Positions 16,204 through 32,912 of a DNA stretch of 64,000 nucleotides are shown one piece after another. Position 1 is the stretch's first letter. Each line of letters starts with the position of its first letter. The position numbers were made by a program, and so were the translations under genes. The DNA comes from an uncultured Eubacteriales bacterium. Its GTDB lineage: Bacteria > Bacillota > Clostridia > Christensenellales > Aristaeellaceae. The stretch is from assembly GCA_902793325.1 (NCBI GenBank), contig CADBCY010000002.1, positions 107,921 to 171,920 on the forward strand. The letters run 5' to 3'. Under the pieces are notes generated by a model, which was given only the letters and a program-made list of their open reading frames with translations, was not told the origin of the DNA and did not search any database.

Positions 16204-18597
16204 ATGGTCAGTATGGACAGGCGGGCGGCGCTTTCGGCCTACGCGCAGGCGTTGATCCCAGAACGGGAGGATTTCCTGTACCGGCAGGCGCTGCGCAAGG
16301 CGCGGCCGATCACCGGCGGCATGGAACCGGCGGCGCGGGAAGCCTACCTGCAGGGAAAGGCGTTCGCGGGCACGCTGTACCGCCTGCGGCGCGGCGACCG
16401 CGTCTATCAGGCGCTGCAGCGTGGGGAGCTCGCGCGGGAGGCCGACCAGGCGGAATTTGACCGTCTCGCGCCGATGATCCTCAGTGAGCTCCGGCACGGC
16501 CATGCCATCGACCTGCCCTTCCTGCGCTCGGTGGAGCGCAGCCGCGTGACGCTGAAGAAGGCGCATGCGGCGCGGGCGCTATTGGACCAGCAGGCGCCGC
16601 GCAAGCAGCTGGAGGCGCTCTCGAAGCGACTCACGGACGAGGCCGAGGCCCGCGTGGAGCGCTATCTGAAGGCCGGCGACCTCTCCCGCCTGGCCGGCGG
16701 GGACCGGAAGGTGGAGCAGCTCCTGCCCCACCTCATGCAGACGGCCTTCCGGCGTGGCATCACCGCGGGCCACGTCGATGCGGCCTATGCCCCGAAGTCG
16801 CTCGAAGCCATATTGCGTTGGGAGGCGGAGCGCGCCTTTCCGGAGCTGGCGGCCTGCGGTTTCGTGCGCACAGAGTGCGGCGAGACGGTCGCACAGGCGC
16901 TGAACCGGGAGCTCCAGCGCGCGAAAAACGCCCTCTGCGCGCGGCTCGGCAAGCGCTTTCCGCCCGATCGCATCCGCGCGCTGCTGGCGGACAATCCCTC
17001 CGTGCGCAGACTGCAACGGCAGGCGGACGCCGTCTTTTCCCGCGAGCGCAGGCTGCGCACGGCGCTGCTCAGCGCCGTACCGAAGCACTACCGCGACCTC
17101 TACCCCCTGGCGCGGCAGATGCACCGCCGCTTCATACTGCACATCGGGCCCACCAACTCGGGCAAGACCCACGACGGCGTGGGTCGGCTGCACGGCGCGC
17201 GCTGCGGCATCTACCTGGGGCCGCTGCGCCTGCTGGCCGCGGAGCAGTTCGAGACGCTGAACCTGAACGACGTGCCCTGCTCGCTGGTCACCGGCGAGGA
17301 GCAGATCTGGGTGCCCGGCAGCCGCGTGCAGTCCTCGACGGTGGAGATGGCCGACCTCAAGGCGCACTACGACGTGGCGGTGATCGACGAGTGTCAGATG
17401 ATCGCGGACCGCGACCGCGGCGGCGCGTGGACGGCGGCGATCCTGGGGCTGTGCGCGGACGAGATCCACGCTTGCGCCTCCCCGGACGCGGAGGGCCTTT
17501 TGACGCGGATCATCCGCGAGTGCGGAGACGCGCTCACCGTGGTGCGCCACGAGCGCATGACGCCGCTGGCCGTGGAGAAGGAGGGGTTTCAGTTCCCCGC
17601 CTCGGTGCGGGCGGGCGACGCGCTGATCGTGTTCTCCAAGGCGCGGGTGCACGCGGTGGCGGCGGAGCTGAAGCGCAAGGGCTGGCGCGTTTCGCTGATC
17701 TACGGCGCGCTGCCGCCGGACGTGCGCCGCGACCAGGCGGAGCGCTTCCAGCGGGGCGATTCCGAAGTGGTGGTCTCCACCGACGCCATCGCCATGGGCA
17801 TGAACCTGCCCATCGAGCGCGTGGTCTTTCTGGAATCGGAGAAGTACGACGGGGACATCACGCGCCCGCTGCTCGATTCGGAGATCAAGCAGATCGCCGG
17901 GCGGGCGGGCCGCTACGGGCAGTACGAGGTCGGCTACGTGAATGCCTTCGGCTTCAAGGGCGCGGTGGCGCAGGCATTGAGCAAGCCGCTGCTGCCCATC
18001 ACCGAGGCCGTGATCGGCTTCCCGGAGTCGCTGCTGGGCCTGCCGCTGCCGCTCACGCAGATCATCAATCAATGGCTGATCATGCAGGACAAGGGCTGCT
18101 TCTCCAAGGCCTCCACCGCGCGCATGGAGGCGCTGGCGGCCATGATGGAGACCAAGCACACCGACAAGCGGCTGCTGTACCGCTTCCTGTGCATCCCCTT
18201 CGACGAGACGGACCCGGACCTGCTGGCGCGGTGGCGGGCCATGTACCACGCGGAGTGCGCGCGGGAACACGTCGACGTGTTGGCGGAGCTCCCCCAGTTC
18301 CTGGACCCCGAGGCTTGCACCACGGCGATGCTGGACGGCCTGGAGGAGGACTACCGCCGCTGCGACCTCTACTACAACTATGCGCGGCTCTTCCTGGACG
18401 AGCCGGAGGACACGCTGGAGCAGATCCAGCGGCGCAAGTCGCTGATCTCACGGGGCATCATTCACATCCTTTCCACCCAGAAGCTACAGCAGAAGACCTG
18501 CCCCGGCTGCAACCGCGCGCTGCCCTGGAACTGGCCCTACCGCCTGTGCGACGCCTGCCACCGCCGCCAGCACGCGCCGGGCCGCGGCCGCGGATAA
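16204..18597 (+). CDS. SUV3-type ATP-dependent RNA helicase
   Basis: 797 aa from ATG 16204 (GGGAGGA 4-10 bp upstream). A long alpha-helical N-terminal region precedes the helicase core: motif I HIGPTNSGKTHDG (near residue 315), GPLRLLAAEQFE, motif II VIDECQMI, STVEM, motif V STDAIAMGMNLP and motif VI QIAGRAGRYGQY. The GPTNSGKT and DExQ forms are characteristic of the SUV3 family, which unwinds RNA for degradation in mitochondria and some bacteria. The C-terminus adds a zinc ribbon, CPGC...CDAC (residues about 765-785). It is probably a partner of an exoribonuclease, though none is adjacent. Confidence 0.85.
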   Translation: MVSMDRRAALSAYAQALIPEREDFLYRQALRKARPITGGMEPAAREAYLQGKAFAGTLYRLRRGDRVYQALQRGELAREADQAEFDRLAPMILSELRHGHAIDLPFLRSVERSRVTLKKAHAARALLDQQAPRKQLEALSKRLTDEAEARVERYLKAGDLSRLAGGDRKVEQLLPHLMQTAFRRGITAGHVDAAYAPKSLEAILRWEAERAFPELAACGFVRTECGETVAQALNRELQRAKNALCARLGKRFPPDRIRALLADNPSVRRLQRQADAVFSRERRLRTALLSAVPKHYRDLYPLARQMHRRFILHIGPTNSGKTHDGVGRLHGARCGIYLGPLRLLAAEQFETLNLNDVPCSLVTGEEQIWVPGSRVQSSTVEMADLKAHYDVAVIDECQMIADRDRGGAWTAAILGLCADEIHACASPDAEGLLTRIIRECGDALTVVRHERMTPLAVEKEGFQFPASVRAGDALIVFSKARVHAVAAELKRKGWRVSLIYGALPPDVRRDQAERFQRGDSEVVVSTDAIAMGMNLPIERVVFLESEKYDGDITRPLLDSEIKQIAGRAGRYGQYEVGYVNAFGFKGAVAQALSKPLLPITEAVIGFPESLLGLPLPLTQIINQWLIMQDKGCFSKASTARMEALAAMMETKHTDKRLLYRFLCIPFDETDPDLLARWRAMYHAECAREHVDVLAELPQFLDPEACTTAMLDGLEEDYRRCDLYYNYARLFLDEPEDTLEQIQRRKSLISRGIIHILSTQKLQQKTCPGCNRALPWNWPYRLCDACHRRQHAPGRGRG

Positions 18598-22973: not shown

Positions 22974-27309
<4,336 letters not shown>

Positions 27310-27313
<4 letters not shown>

Positions 27314-27624
27314 TCTCTGGTTTCCTTTTTCTCCCCGGCGCCCATGCGCTCCAACACGAGCTGGTAGCCGCCCGCGCCGTAGTTGAGCGCGCGGTTCACG
27401 CGGCCGATGGTAGCGGTGGACACGCCGGTCTTTTCCACGATTTCCGTATAGGTGGTCTGTTTGCGAAGCAGCTGCGCCACCTCCAGCCTCTGGCTGAGAT
27501 CCTGGATCTCCCGGATGGTGAACAGGTCTTCAAACATGCGGTAGCAGTCTTCCTCGGTCTCGAGGCACAGGAAGGCGCGGGCGAGCGCATCGGCCTGGCG
27601 CGATTTCAATTTCGATGAAAACAT
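27310..27624 (-). CDS. yerC: YerC/YecD family TrpR-like protein
   Basis: 104 aa. A TrpR-like helix-turn-helix lies at residues about 35-85 (FTIREIQDLSQRLEVAQLL, TYTEIVEKTGVSTATIGRVNRAL), identical in layout to B. subtilis YerC, which also precedes pcrA and ligA. It probably represses an unknown target or the operon itself. GGAGG is 7 bp before ATG 27624, and a strong promoter lies upstream. Confidence 0.92.
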
Positions 27625-27666
27625 CTCTCTACCTCCACATCTGTAATATGGGTGACTCTGTTAATA

Positions 27667-27695
27667 ATTATAGCGTAACCGCAACAGAGCGTCAA
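27667..27695 (-). promoter_or_regulatory. SigA promoter of yerC-pcrA-ligA
   Basis: Minus strand: -35 TTGACG (27690-27695), 17 bp, perfect -10 TATAAT (27667-27672). Transcription starts about 37 bp before yerC. Confidence 0.8.
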
Positions 27696-27730
27696 GCATA
27701 TTCACCGATTCCGGTAAAATTTTGACCGCG

Positions 27731-28051
27731 TCAATAGGCGTCCGGATCCTTGCGCTTGTGTTCGCGCAGCACGTGCATGATGTCCGTGACCAGGTCCCCC
27801 TCCGGCCCGCCCACGCCGAGCTGCGCAGACATGACCTCCTTGCTCAGCGAATCCTGGAGCAGCACCGTGGGCGACACCGACAGGGCGTTGCACAGGGCCA
27901 CCACCGTTTCGATGCTGGCCTTCTTCTCCCCGCGCTCGATGTGCCCCACAAAGGCGCAGGAGATGCCGGCCTTTTCCGCCAACTGCTCCTGTGTCAGCTT
28001 GTTCAGTACCCGCTGCTGCCGGACCCGCTTCCCCAGCTGCACGTAATCCAT
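27731..28051 (-). CDS. XRE-family transcriptional regulator
   Basis: 106 aa. The Cro/CI-type helix-turn-helix is at residues about 6-62 (LGKRVRQQRVLNKLTQEQLAEKAGISCAFVGHIERGEKKAS). The tail has no recognisable ligand domain. ATG 28051 is preferred because GGAGG touches the earlier ATG 28060 but is 9 bp from this one. It lies between the pcrA operon promoter and the tandem repeat, and no obvious target gene adjoins it. Confidence 0.85.
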   Translation of the reverse strand: MDYVQLGKRVRQQRVLNKLTQEQLAEKAGISCAFVGHIERGEKKASIETVVALCNALSVSPTVLLQDSLSKEVMSAQLGVGGPEGDLVTDIMHVLREHKRKDPDAY

Positions 28052-28230
28052 GCCATGCATCCTCCCTCCGGATTCCCGCCTTCGCGCCTGCGAAAACGCC
28101 TATATCCAGTGTAAACAACAGCGCGCGAATCAGCCACCGCGCAACCGTTAAATTTTACGTTTTCGACACCTTTTTCTTAATCTGCGTCGTCGCCGCGCAA
28201 ATCTCGCCGTCGGGCTTGTGTTTCGGACGG

Positions 28231-28567
28231 AATCAAGGTATAATGATTAGGCAACCGGCCCGCAGGGCGGTTGGCCGGGTCGCCGGGCCGCGGAGCGAGC
28301 ACGGCGACAATCAAAGTATAATGATTAGGCAACCGACCCGCAGGGCGGTTGGCCGGGTCGCCGGGCCGCGGAGCGAGCACAGCGACAATCAAAGTATAAT
28401 GATTAGGCAACCGACCCGCAGGGCGGTTGGCCGGGTCGCCGGGCCGCGGAGCGAGCACGGCGACAATCAAAGTATAATGATTAGGAAAGCCGATGGCTTT
28501 CCGCATCGGCACGCAAGGGAGCGAAGCGAGTTGCGCAGCGCGCCGACAATCATAGTGTAATTGAACC
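28231..28567. repeat. Tandem 78-bp repeats with paired hairpins and -10-like motifs
   Basis: Three near-identical 78-bp units start at 28231, 28309 and 28387. A fourth, 83-bp unit at 28465 keeps the head but has a different body, and a degenerate head begins at 28548. Each head reads AATCAAAGTATAATGATT (first unit G for A) and is an inverted repeat AATCA...TGATT enclosing TATAAT. Each body holds hairpin one (CAACCG...CGGTTG) and hairpin two (GTCGCCG...CGGCGAC). In unit four these are replaced by GGAAAGCC/GGCTTTCC and TCGGC...GCCGA, so pairing is kept while sequence changes. Confidence 0.9.
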
Positions 28568-28595
28568 AGATCATATCAGAAGGGTGGCGGGCCGC

Positions 28596-28931
28596 ATGAA
28601 GTTGCGCTGGCTGTGGGCATGGCTGCTCCAGGCCGTCGTGATGCTGGCCGTGAGCCTCGTGGCCTCGCTGACCTACCCGCTGAGCCCTGTGCTGTACGGC
28701 GCGCTGCTCTGGGCCGCGGTGCCGCTGGCGGGCATGTTCACCGCCTGCCGGGCGACGCGCCGCGGGCTGAACAACTACCTGGCCTGGCTGCTGCCCGCGC
28801 CGTGCCTGTACGCGGCCCACTACGCGCTGTGGCGCTTCTCCCCTTCCGCGGGCGCCGCGCTGCTGACGGCCTTCCTCTCCCTGGTGGGCGCTGCCGCCGG
28901 CGACGTGCTCAACCGCCGCGAGAAGCGCTGA
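28596..28931 (+). CDS. Small multi-span membrane protein, unknown family
   Basis: 111 aa with three to four hydrophobic helices (residues about 5-27, 33-52, 62-80, 86-105) and a basic C-terminus (LNRREKR). ATG 28596 has an AGGGTGG site; an in-frame GTG 12 bp earlier touches that site. It lies just downstream of the tandem repeats, which may be its leader, and 48 bp before the FGGY kinase gene. No family is recognised. Confidence 0.6.
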   Translation: MKLRWLWAWLLQAVVMLAVSLVASLTYPLSPVLYGALLWAAVPLAGMFTACRATRRGLNNYLAWLLPAPCLYAAHYALWRFSPSAGAALLTAFLSLVGAAAGDVLNRREKR

Positions 28932-28979
28932 CCCCCGCTCCCCGTCCCTACTTCTCAATCCGACTCCCGGAGGTTCGCC

Positions 28980-30503
28980 ATGGAAAAAGACCTGATCCTG
29001 ACCCTCGACGCCGGCACGACCGGCTGCAAGTGCTCCGTGTTCAACACCGCCGGCGACGCACTGTGCGCGGTGCGGCGCGACTACGGCACCCAGTACCCCC
29101 ATCCCAACTGGGCCGAGCAGGACCCCGACGCCATACTGGACGCCATCTGCGACGGCATCCGCGAGCTGCTGGTGCAGGTCAGCCCCCAGCGTATCGCCTG
29201 CGTGGGCCTCTCCGGCACCATGAACGGCTGCATCCCGGTGGACGAGCACGGCGCGGCGCTGCACCCCAACATCATCCACTCCGACAGCCGCACCGAGGCG
29301 CAGGTGGCGGAGATCGAAAACGTCATCGCCTTCGAGGACTTTTACCGGCTCACCGGCAACCGCCCGGACACCCATTACACGCTGCCGAAGATCCTGTGGT
29401 TCAAGGAGCAGCTTCCAGACGTGTACCGCCGCGCGCGCTGGTACCTGAACATCAAGGACTACCTCTACGGCCACCTGACCGGGCGTTTTGGCTACACGGA
29501 CTACTCCGACGCCTCGCTGACCGCGGCGCTGGACATCAATCGCCGCGTCTGGGCCGAGGAACTGCTGAAATCGCTGGGCCTGAACCCCGGCGCCATGCCC
29601 GCGCTCCTAAAGAGCCACGACGTCCGCGGCAAGACCACGCGGGACATCTACCGCCGCACCGGGCTGATCACCGGCACGCCAGTGGCCATCGGCGGCGGCG
29701 ACGGCGCGTGCGCGACCCGCGGCGCGGGCATGGTGGAGCCGGGCAGCGCCTACACCAGCATGGGCTCGAGCGCATGGGTCTGCCAGTTGACGGACCGCCC
29801 GCTGCTGGACCCGAAGGCGCGCATCTTCAACTGGGTCGATATGAACGGCCGCGATTACCAGGTCTGCGGCACCGTACAGTGCAGCGGCTCCGCCTTCGAC
29901 TGGGGGGTGAAGAACCTGCTCGGCGGCGGCAGCCAGTGGTCGGATGTCTCGCTGGTGGAGAACATGGCGCGGCAGATCGCCCCCGGCGCGGAGGGCGTGC
30001 TGTTCCTGCCCACGCTTATGGGCTGGCGCACCCCCTACTGGGACGCCAACACCCGCGGCTGCCTGATGGGCTTCTCGCTCTACCACGACCAACGGCACAT
30101 CGCCCGCGCGCTGTACGAGGGCATCGCCTTCGCGCTGAACAGTTGCCTGGAGGTCATGGTGGAGTGCGGCGCGCCCGCCCGCAGCATGATGCTCACCGGC
30201 GGCGGCGCGCGCAGCGGCCTGTGGCCAGACATGATGGCCGCCGTGTACGGGCTGACCACGCAGGTGCACCGCAATCCCGGCGAGACCACCGGCCTCGGCG
30301 CAGCCATCGCCGCGGGCGTGGGCGTGGGCCTGTTCAGGGACTACGGCGACGCCGCCAGCATCGTGTCCGCCCGCTCCACCCATCCCGTGAACCCCCAGTG
30401 GGCCGAGGCATACCGGGAGATCTACGCCATCTACGCTGGCATCTACGACGCCCTCCGCCCGCTGAACAACCGCATCGCCGCCCTCCCCGCCGCGAAGGGC
30501 TGA
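28980..30503 (+). CDS. FGGY-family carbohydrate kinase (xylulokinase-like)
   Basis: 507 aa, with GGAGG 6 bp before ATG 28980. The N-terminal FGGY domain begins LILTLDAGTTGCKCSVFN (phosphate loop) and includes GLSGTMNGCIPVDEHG and IIHSDSRTE. The C-terminal ATPase lobe has IGGGDGACATRGAGM, TPYWDANTRG and MLTGGGARSGLWPDMMA. The family phosphorylates a ketose or polyol with ATP. Replacement of the usual GQMHG by GTMNG sets it apart from classic xylulokinases, so the substrate is open. It has no transporter beside it. Confidence 0.88.
   Translation: MEKDLILTLDAGTTGCKCSVFNTAGDALCAVRRDYGTQYPHPNWAEQDPDAILDAICDGIRELLVQVSPQRIACVGLSGTMNGCIPVDEHGAALHPNIIHSDSRTEAQVAEIENVIAFEDFYRLTGNRPDTHYTLPKILWFKEQLPDVYRRARWYLNIKDYLYGHLTGRFGYTDYSDASLTAALDINRRVWAEELLKSLGLNPGAMPALLKSHDVRGKTTRDIYRRTGLITGTPVAIGGGDGACATRGAGMVEPGSAYTSMGSSAWVCQLTDRPLLDPKARIFNWVDMNGRDYQVCGTVQCSGSAFDWGVKNLLGGGSQWSDVSLVENMARQIAPGAEGVLFLPTLMGWRTPYWDANTRGCLMGFSLYHDQRHIARALYEGIAFALNSCLEVMVECGAPARSMMLTGGGARSGLWPDMMAAVYGLTTQVHRNPGETTGLGAAIAAGVGVGLFRDYGDAASIVSARSTHPVNPQWAEAYREIYAIYAGIYDALRPLNNRIAALPAAKG

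Positions 30504-31454: not shown

Positions 31455-32912
<1,458 letters not shown>

Follow-up and report, generated by a model that had tools for sequence, protein, structure and literature searches.

The locus and its repeat array

The window, that is the whole stretch of 64,000 nucleotides that was analysed, carries a tandem repeat array followed by a gene for a small protein (Table 1). The neighbours are ordinary and include a UvrD/PcrA-like helicase gene (25016–27313, identified by eye), an FGGY carbohydrate kinase gene (28980–30503, Pfam) and an IMP-dehydrogenase-like gene (31461–32912, by eye). The first-pass annotation had described tandem 78-bp repeats, three near-identical units and a fourth with a different body, and this was confirmed in three ways. 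Tandem Repeats Finder gave a period of 78 with 3.4 copies and 96% matches at 28231–28493; the head AATCA-nnGTATAA-TGATT recurs at 28231, 28309, 28387 and 28465, i.e. 78 bases apart (four head matches with at most 3 mismatches against 0.01 expected in shuffles); and the units were compared directly. Counted from TGATT to AATCA the cores measure 70, 70, 70 and 75 bases, with an 8-base spacer, AAGTATAA, between cores. Units 1–3 differ pairwise at 2, 1 and 1 of 70 bases, while unit 4 reaches at best 52% identity with the neighbouring units and 95% with a unit of another array of the same genome (L012).

Table 1. Features of the repeat array and of the gene downstream of it, in window coordinates
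Feature	Position	Strand	Remarks
-35-like hexamer TTGTGT	28216..28221	+	gene's own promoter; 17 bp upstream of first TATAAT
TATAAT	28239..28244	+	gene promoter's -10, putatively ancestral; array's left border
Unit 1 core	28244..28313	+	TGATTA, hairpin 1 (28250–28276), GG, hairpin 2 (28279–28308), AATCA; ends able to pair
TATAAT	28317..28322	+	junction of units 1 and 2
Unit 2 core	28322..28391	+	
TATAAT	28395..28400	+	junction of units 2 and 3
Unit 3 core	28400..28469	+	
TATAAT	28473..28478	+	junction of units 3 and 4
Unit 4 core	28478..28552	+	other subtype; hairpin 1 28484–28502 (GGAAAGCC/GGCTTTCC), hairpin 2 inside 28503–28547
TGTAAT	28556..28561	+	decayed -10-like hexamer; right border of array
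Downstream gene	28596..28931	+	small protein; alternative start GTG at 28584

Two hairpins per unit, also part of the earlier description, are predicted in both kinds of unit. For stretches offset by one base from the core, the minimum free energy is -36.5 kcal/mol (z -2.55) for the type of units 1–3 and -29.9 kcal/mol (z -2.94) for that of unit 4, 2 of 200 shuffles being as good in each case. The statement that both stems of unit 4 have other bases and still pair holds in part: the hairpins are predicted, but 2 of the 9 aligned hairpin 2 pairs are A-C and unpaired. Likewise, the bases of unit 4 do differ from those of its neighbours, but since this unit is nearly identical to one elsewhere in the genome, the paired differences lie between two subtypes and did not arise within the array.

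The product of the downstream gene has no Pfam match at E≤0.001. Its orthologues are present in 24 of the 27 other genomes of the genus, and the covariance model described below detects units at none of these 24 loci. All 22 orthologous loci with a nearby upstream TATAAT have a TTG-starting hexamer 16–18 bp before it (the best of three spacings was taken, with TTG preferred); at the loci of G023 and G015 there is no TATAAT within the 420 bases examined. The hexamer of the window, TTGTGT, agrees with TTGACA at three of six positions. Given the conserved old promoter and the relatives without units, the array most likely arose by insertion in this species, directly 3' of the gene's old -10. The mRNA would then start in unit 1, with all four units in its leader. 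The suggestion of a tandem promoter is weak at best: the first TATAAT is indeed the conserved promoter of the gene, but a promoter scan of the + strand from 27600 to 29100 found no promoter-like site above threshold, and the inner TATAATs have neither a -35-like hexamer nor a preceding TG when read from the sequence.

A dispersed repeat family

The head pattern occurs at 31 sites in the window's genome and the reversed pattern, used as a control, at none. A covariance model built from 33 cores gave 65 matches in this genome at E≤0.01 and 72 at E≤1; the 7 matches with E 0.02–0.9 were dropped, and the 65 retained all fall into 32 arrays (array L012 was taken to end at 17228, excluding a decayed half unit). 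In G016 all 33 matches were kept and make up 29 arrays. Sixty genomes were searched with the model. Matches were obtained in every one of the 28 genomes of the genus, that of the window among them (1 to 65 copies each), compared with none of the 8 other genera of the family and one of the 24 genomes of the order, where the match is weak (E 0.003). A pattern scan of genome contigs found at least 105 stretches; the 80 listed belong to uncultured metagenome-assembled genomes whose records bear the names Clostridiales, Clostridia or Christensenellaceae bacterium. Where such a record title mentions an animal, it is a ruminant (roe deer, red deer, goat or sheep).

Fold of the units

In an alignment of 148 copies (142 distinct), standard pairs occupy 96.7% of the paired cells compared with 85.2% in shuffles, and double-sided changes are found at 18 of 21 pairs against 7.8 in shuffles, these being counts from related sequences, not independent events. 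Sliding the partners by 1–3 columns lowers the pairing to 25–53%, in an alignment that leans towards hairpins 1 and 2 because both stood in the model that built it. The two ends of the unit, TGATT and AATCA, make up a third stem, which was unpaired in the model; it pairs in 93.6% of cells, 4 of its 5 pairs have changed on both sides, and its variants include TGATT/AATCA, CGATT/AATCG and TGGTT/AACCA. In a strand test of G-T against A-C pairs, hairpin 2 leans to the + strand (37 versus 13), and no lean is seen for hairpin 1 (16 versus 12) or the end stem (20 versus 21).

The 148 copies were also the input to a tally of loops. The loop is GAA, GCA, GGA or AAA in 54 of the 64 script-resolved copies of hairpin 1 and in 71 of the 122 listed copies of hairpin 2, the remainder being unresolved or outside the listing. 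GNA loops confer unusual stability on DNA minihairpins, so a single-stranded DNA form of the element is a possibility, not a result. By eye, two units, the first of L011 and the first of L018, are hybrids, with a hairpin 1 resembling one subtype and a hairpin 2 from a different one, which would suit an exchange at the common middle CCGGGTCG.

Promoter-type sites

In the window's genome TATAAT (1 mismatch allowed) abuts the left end of 27 of the 32 arrays compared with 22 of 4000 random positions, and 13 of these 27 have at least four of the six bases of TTGACA at 16–18 bp. A terminator lies to the left of one of the five arrays without an abutting -10; the other four have neither signal. A -10-like hexamer is kept on the right in 16 of 32 arrays, against 27 of 32 on the left. 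In an uncontrolled count by script a start codon in the same direction follows 27 of the 32 arrays, some of these starts being doubtful, and one was seen by eye at three more (L009, L058 and L064). No downstream start was found for L056 (46260), and L067 points away. Judged by eye, the genes downstream of the other arrays share no evident function.

The octamers to the left and right of the same locus have a mean distance of 1.93 compared with 2.02 when shuffled (p 0.24, n=27 of 34 loci), in a comparison whose power is limited by constraint on the -10. As the right -10 is no closer to its own left -10 than to others, arrival with the element is a likelier origin for it than copying of the target; duplication of the target as its source is not supported by these sequences.

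Terminator-type sites

The relatives harbour a second subfamily, with cores mostly of 60–61 bases, which adjoins intrinsic terminators on their 3' side. After 6 promoter-type arrays were set aside from 61 in G016, G019, G023 and G015, a terminator was found to the left of 39 of the remaining 55 and to the right of 1 of 55, compared with 80 of 3000 random positions, both sides having been treated alike; by script, 16 of the 55 have none. With a stricter criterion terminators adjoin 16 of 29 arrays in G016, 7 of 12 in G019, 5 of 10 in G023 and 8 of 11 in G015 (random, 54 of 4000). The copies of the last three genomes, on which the 55 also depend, were fetched mostly by their 60–61-base cores, and the terminator share there is therefore not genome-wide. 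A left leader of 12–13 nt, TTGG(C/AA)TTGTACA, is present in 37 of the 55 arrays, and the hairpin of the target terminator is kept, not replaced.

In G016 and G019 hairpin 1, AAAACGGAACGTTTT, is common to both subfamilies; hairpin 2 and the linker differ. Identical terminator-type cores are found at several loci of G016, which indicates recent spread.

The leaders of glnA were compared at 27 loci. In 8 of them (L073, L075, L078, L080, L081, L082, L088 and L095) a copy in reverse orientation lies at the T-tract of a leader stem-loop, possibly an attenuator, ahead of the glnA start. At L079 the copy is farther upstream, and the other 18 loci have no match, L093 apparently ending short of the leader. 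The glnA copies come with about 8 extra nucleotides, as judged by eye.

Empty sites

At the yicC promoter, compared in 28 genomes, the repeat is present in G000 (4 matches), G016, G026 and G019, and the other 24 loci have no match. Between the close relatives G010 and G016 the site is empty in the former (...GATGTGGTATAATGACCGTGG...) and filled in the latter (...GATGTGGTATAATGATTAGG...GACAATCATGGTATAATGAACGTGG...), where the insert lies directly 3' of the -10 with one -10 on each side. The -10 region is thus single where the site is empty and double where it is filled, its two flanking copies in G016 agreeing over at most 11 bases; taken on its own, this pair of genomes would also fit a duplication. 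Eight terminator-type loci of G016 were sought in G010: two are empty, two filled and four absent or fragmentary. Both empty sites limit the duplication to about 2 bases or fewer, and the 12-base leader belongs to the insert. The ends of the element are placed to within a few bases, since target and element have TATAAT or T in common. These comparisons of aligned loci indicate insertion. Array size also differs between the two genomes: where G016 has three units, G010 has a gap of 63 bases, one core length.

A mobile hairpin element had been among the readings put forward at the outset, with a genome-wide covariance search as the check. That search has now been run and finds other copies with their stems retained, contrary to the outcome that had been named as refuting. 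Together with the genus-wide spread, the filled and empty orthologous sites and the stems kept by paired changes, the dispersed copies support the suggestion.

Relation to known repeats

The nearest known kinds of repeat are REPINs and REPs, as described in the available text of PMC3116915, PMC3733652, PMC6006769 and PMC8266576. Like these, the units are short, gene-less, imperfect inverted pairs of hairpins, intergenic, dispersed and sometimes clustered (PMC3116915, available text). A RAYT gene flanked by the same repeat was not found in the genome, and no linked RAYT was present among those read. In place of the GTAG-type guide of RAYT-associated REPs, each of the 33 aligned copies has GATTA before the foot of hairpin 1; unlike REPINs, the units also have their own -10 at one end and a placement at promoters or terminators. 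CGTC-tagged REPs are likewise palindromic repeats apparently without a dedicated transposase, according to the available text of PMC3733652, in which the strings 'Clostridi' and 'Firmicutes' are absent. The present repeat has no terminal CGTC tag or CCA tail; across the alignment of 33 copies its ends are TGATTAGG and CGACAATC. Its two hairpins also differ from each other and are enclosed by an end stem.

The pneumococcal BOX, RUP and SPRITE elements are comparable small repeats, BOX lying near genes with a variable tandem number of boxB. For BOX and RUP a likeness of the ends to those of transposons in the same genome is reported, whereas no such partner was come across among the sequences read for the present repeat; unlike for the window's repeat, no targeting of -10 boxes is described in the available text (PMC3049150). 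IS200/IS605 elements have subterminal hairpins and select a short target by base pairing, inserting on its 3' side (PMC6006769, available text), but the window's genome is without Y1, and the IS200 copies read have other ends. Group IIC introns are mobile and aimed at terminators (PMC8919778, available text), and IS1272 is mobile, aimed at inverted repeats and leaves no target duplication (PMC5678879, available text); in contrast, 60–84 bp is too small for a ribozyme, maturase or transposase, and the target hairpin is kept.

A literature search that covered titles and opening abstracts, subscription journals lying mostly outside it, retrieved no description of a repeat family at -10 boxes and terminators. 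The family is accordingly filed as a miniature hairpin repeat of known kind with an unusual choice of target.

Proposed origin and movement of the array

The genome comparisons demonstrate dispersal, genus-wide spread, a conserved fold, a site preference, empty sites and a difference in array size between close relatives. The array of the window is read, with a probability of about 0.75, as four copies of a non-autonomous mobile repeat that is defined by its fold and aimed at the start and stop signals of transcription. The element would be gene-less, with a core of about 60–84 bp in which two short hairpins, frequently with GNA loops, lie between the paired ends TGATT and AATCA, and this core would be common to the promoter type, seen in the window, and the terminator type. 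The promoter type would land directly downstream of a -10 hexamer, oriented with transcription. Its right end bears another -10-like sequence, often TGGTATAAT; the gene would thus retain its original -35 and -10 upstream of the insert and, initially, have a -10 at the former position downstream. The terminator type, with the leader TTGG(C or AA)TTGTACA at its left, would land directly 3' of intrinsic terminators.

Since TATAAT closes a promoter-type unit, every insertion would leave a new target, and through this carried TATAAT new units, including those of other subtypes, could enter an existing array, while slippage or unequal exchange would multiply identical units. Units 1–3 fit the latter process; separate arrivals would suit unit 4 as well as the mixed arrays L011, L012 and L013. 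The moving form may be a folded single DNA strand, and an enzyme acting in trans would presumably move it. A tentative and doubtful proposal is that the folded strand is joined into DNA opened by transcription, a melted -10 or the T-tract of a paused terminator, by a type of enzyme new to such repeats, with the right half and the linker deciding between start and stop sites.

Searches for a mobilising enzyme, directed at Y1 transposases and group II maturases, did not find one. An element like a REPIN or derived from IS200/IS605, mobilised in single-stranded form by a Y1 (HUH) enzyme and with a same-strand TGATT before each hairpin, would explain the two imperfect hairpins, their inverted arrangement and the tandem arrays, all as in REPINs and IS200/IS605, as well as insertion 3' of a short sequence and the lack of a long target duplication at two sites (PMC3116915 and PMC6006769, available text). 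The sequence ATTA at the foot of hairpin 1 is, moreover, complementary to TAAT of the target -10, but this foot is without a GT[AG]G guide. A Y1 gene is present in 16 of the 28 genomes of the genus and missing from 12, which include the window's and also G019 and G020 with 45 and 28 repeat copies, and the median number of copies is 12.5 in the 16 genomes with Y1 against 20 in the 12 without. Four RAYT-like Y1 genes that were read (L310–L313, in G016, G015, G023 and G002) adjoin a different repeat, GGGGACGGTTC, and where an IS200 adjoins units, in two genomes, it is a separate element lying within a unit. Missing from copy-rich genomes and accompanied by other repeats where RAYT-like, Y1 transposase was rejected as the mover, and the Y1 reading as a whole is questionable though not negligible. 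Terminal inverted repeats of DDE-type MITEs are about 10 bp or more long and shared with a transposon; among the sequences read, no longer element was seen with the ends of this repeat. A classical MITE moved by a DDE transposase, with TGATT/AATCA as its ends and the duplicated TGGTATAA as an 8-bp target-site duplication, would suit the tandem spacers, which resemble such a duplication, the doubled -10 region at yicC and the extra nucleotides of the glnA copies. It is unlikely in view of the octamers, which are no closer within a locus than when shuffled (with the limit on power given above), of the short or missing duplication at the two empty terminator sites, and of an inverted repeat of 5 bp, conservation residing in the internal hairpins.

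A function as a cis-regulatory leader, in which a tandem promoter or RNA array would be maintained for the tuning of the downstream gene by copy number, agrees with the conserved structure and with the same-direction starts after most arrays, counted by script or by eye with the reservations already made. It is nonetheless very unlikely, as the 24 relatives have no units at the window's gene, the genes behind other arrays look functionally unrelated, the right -10 has often decayed and the same core lies behind terminators in relatives. Rfam, moreover, gives no match at gathering score within the window. This, the loci of the 24 relatives and the copies behind terminators also leave the regulatory RNA repeat of the first-pass annotation unsupported. 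For the terminator-type sites, a group IIC-intron-like or other retro-mechanism would account for the position, since Bacterial-C-type introns insert directly 3' of rho-independent terminators (PMC8919778, available text). The maturase domain (GIIM) was, however, detected in 5 of the 28 genomes and is absent from that of the window and from G016, and promoter-type sites are generally not preceded by a stem-loop; a group II intron was rejected on the maturase count, and the mechanism is highly improbable.

If the array does consist of mobile repeats aimed at transcription signals, up to dozens of tiny repeats per genome in one bacterial genus would enter promoters without removing the -10, with sister repeats behind terminators. 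This would be an unusually direct link between transcription signals and the target choice of a mobile element, and a ready source of variable 5' leaders for unrelated genes. The family would also offer a test case for what moves orphan palindromic repeats, a question common to other REP families.

IS200 elements within repeat units

Sequences at G002:C9 and G018:C53 at first resembled an autonomous partner of the repeat, because a tnpA pseudogene sits between or beside repeat matches. The candidate was rejected, as the sequence is an IS200 element inserted within a unit after TGATT. At both loci (L305, G002:C9:7000-9500, and L306, G018:C53:4000-6500) the transposase gene of the IS200-type element is broken, and the element lies inside the unit directly after TGATT; a further IS200-type copy, in G026:C20, also follows TGATT.
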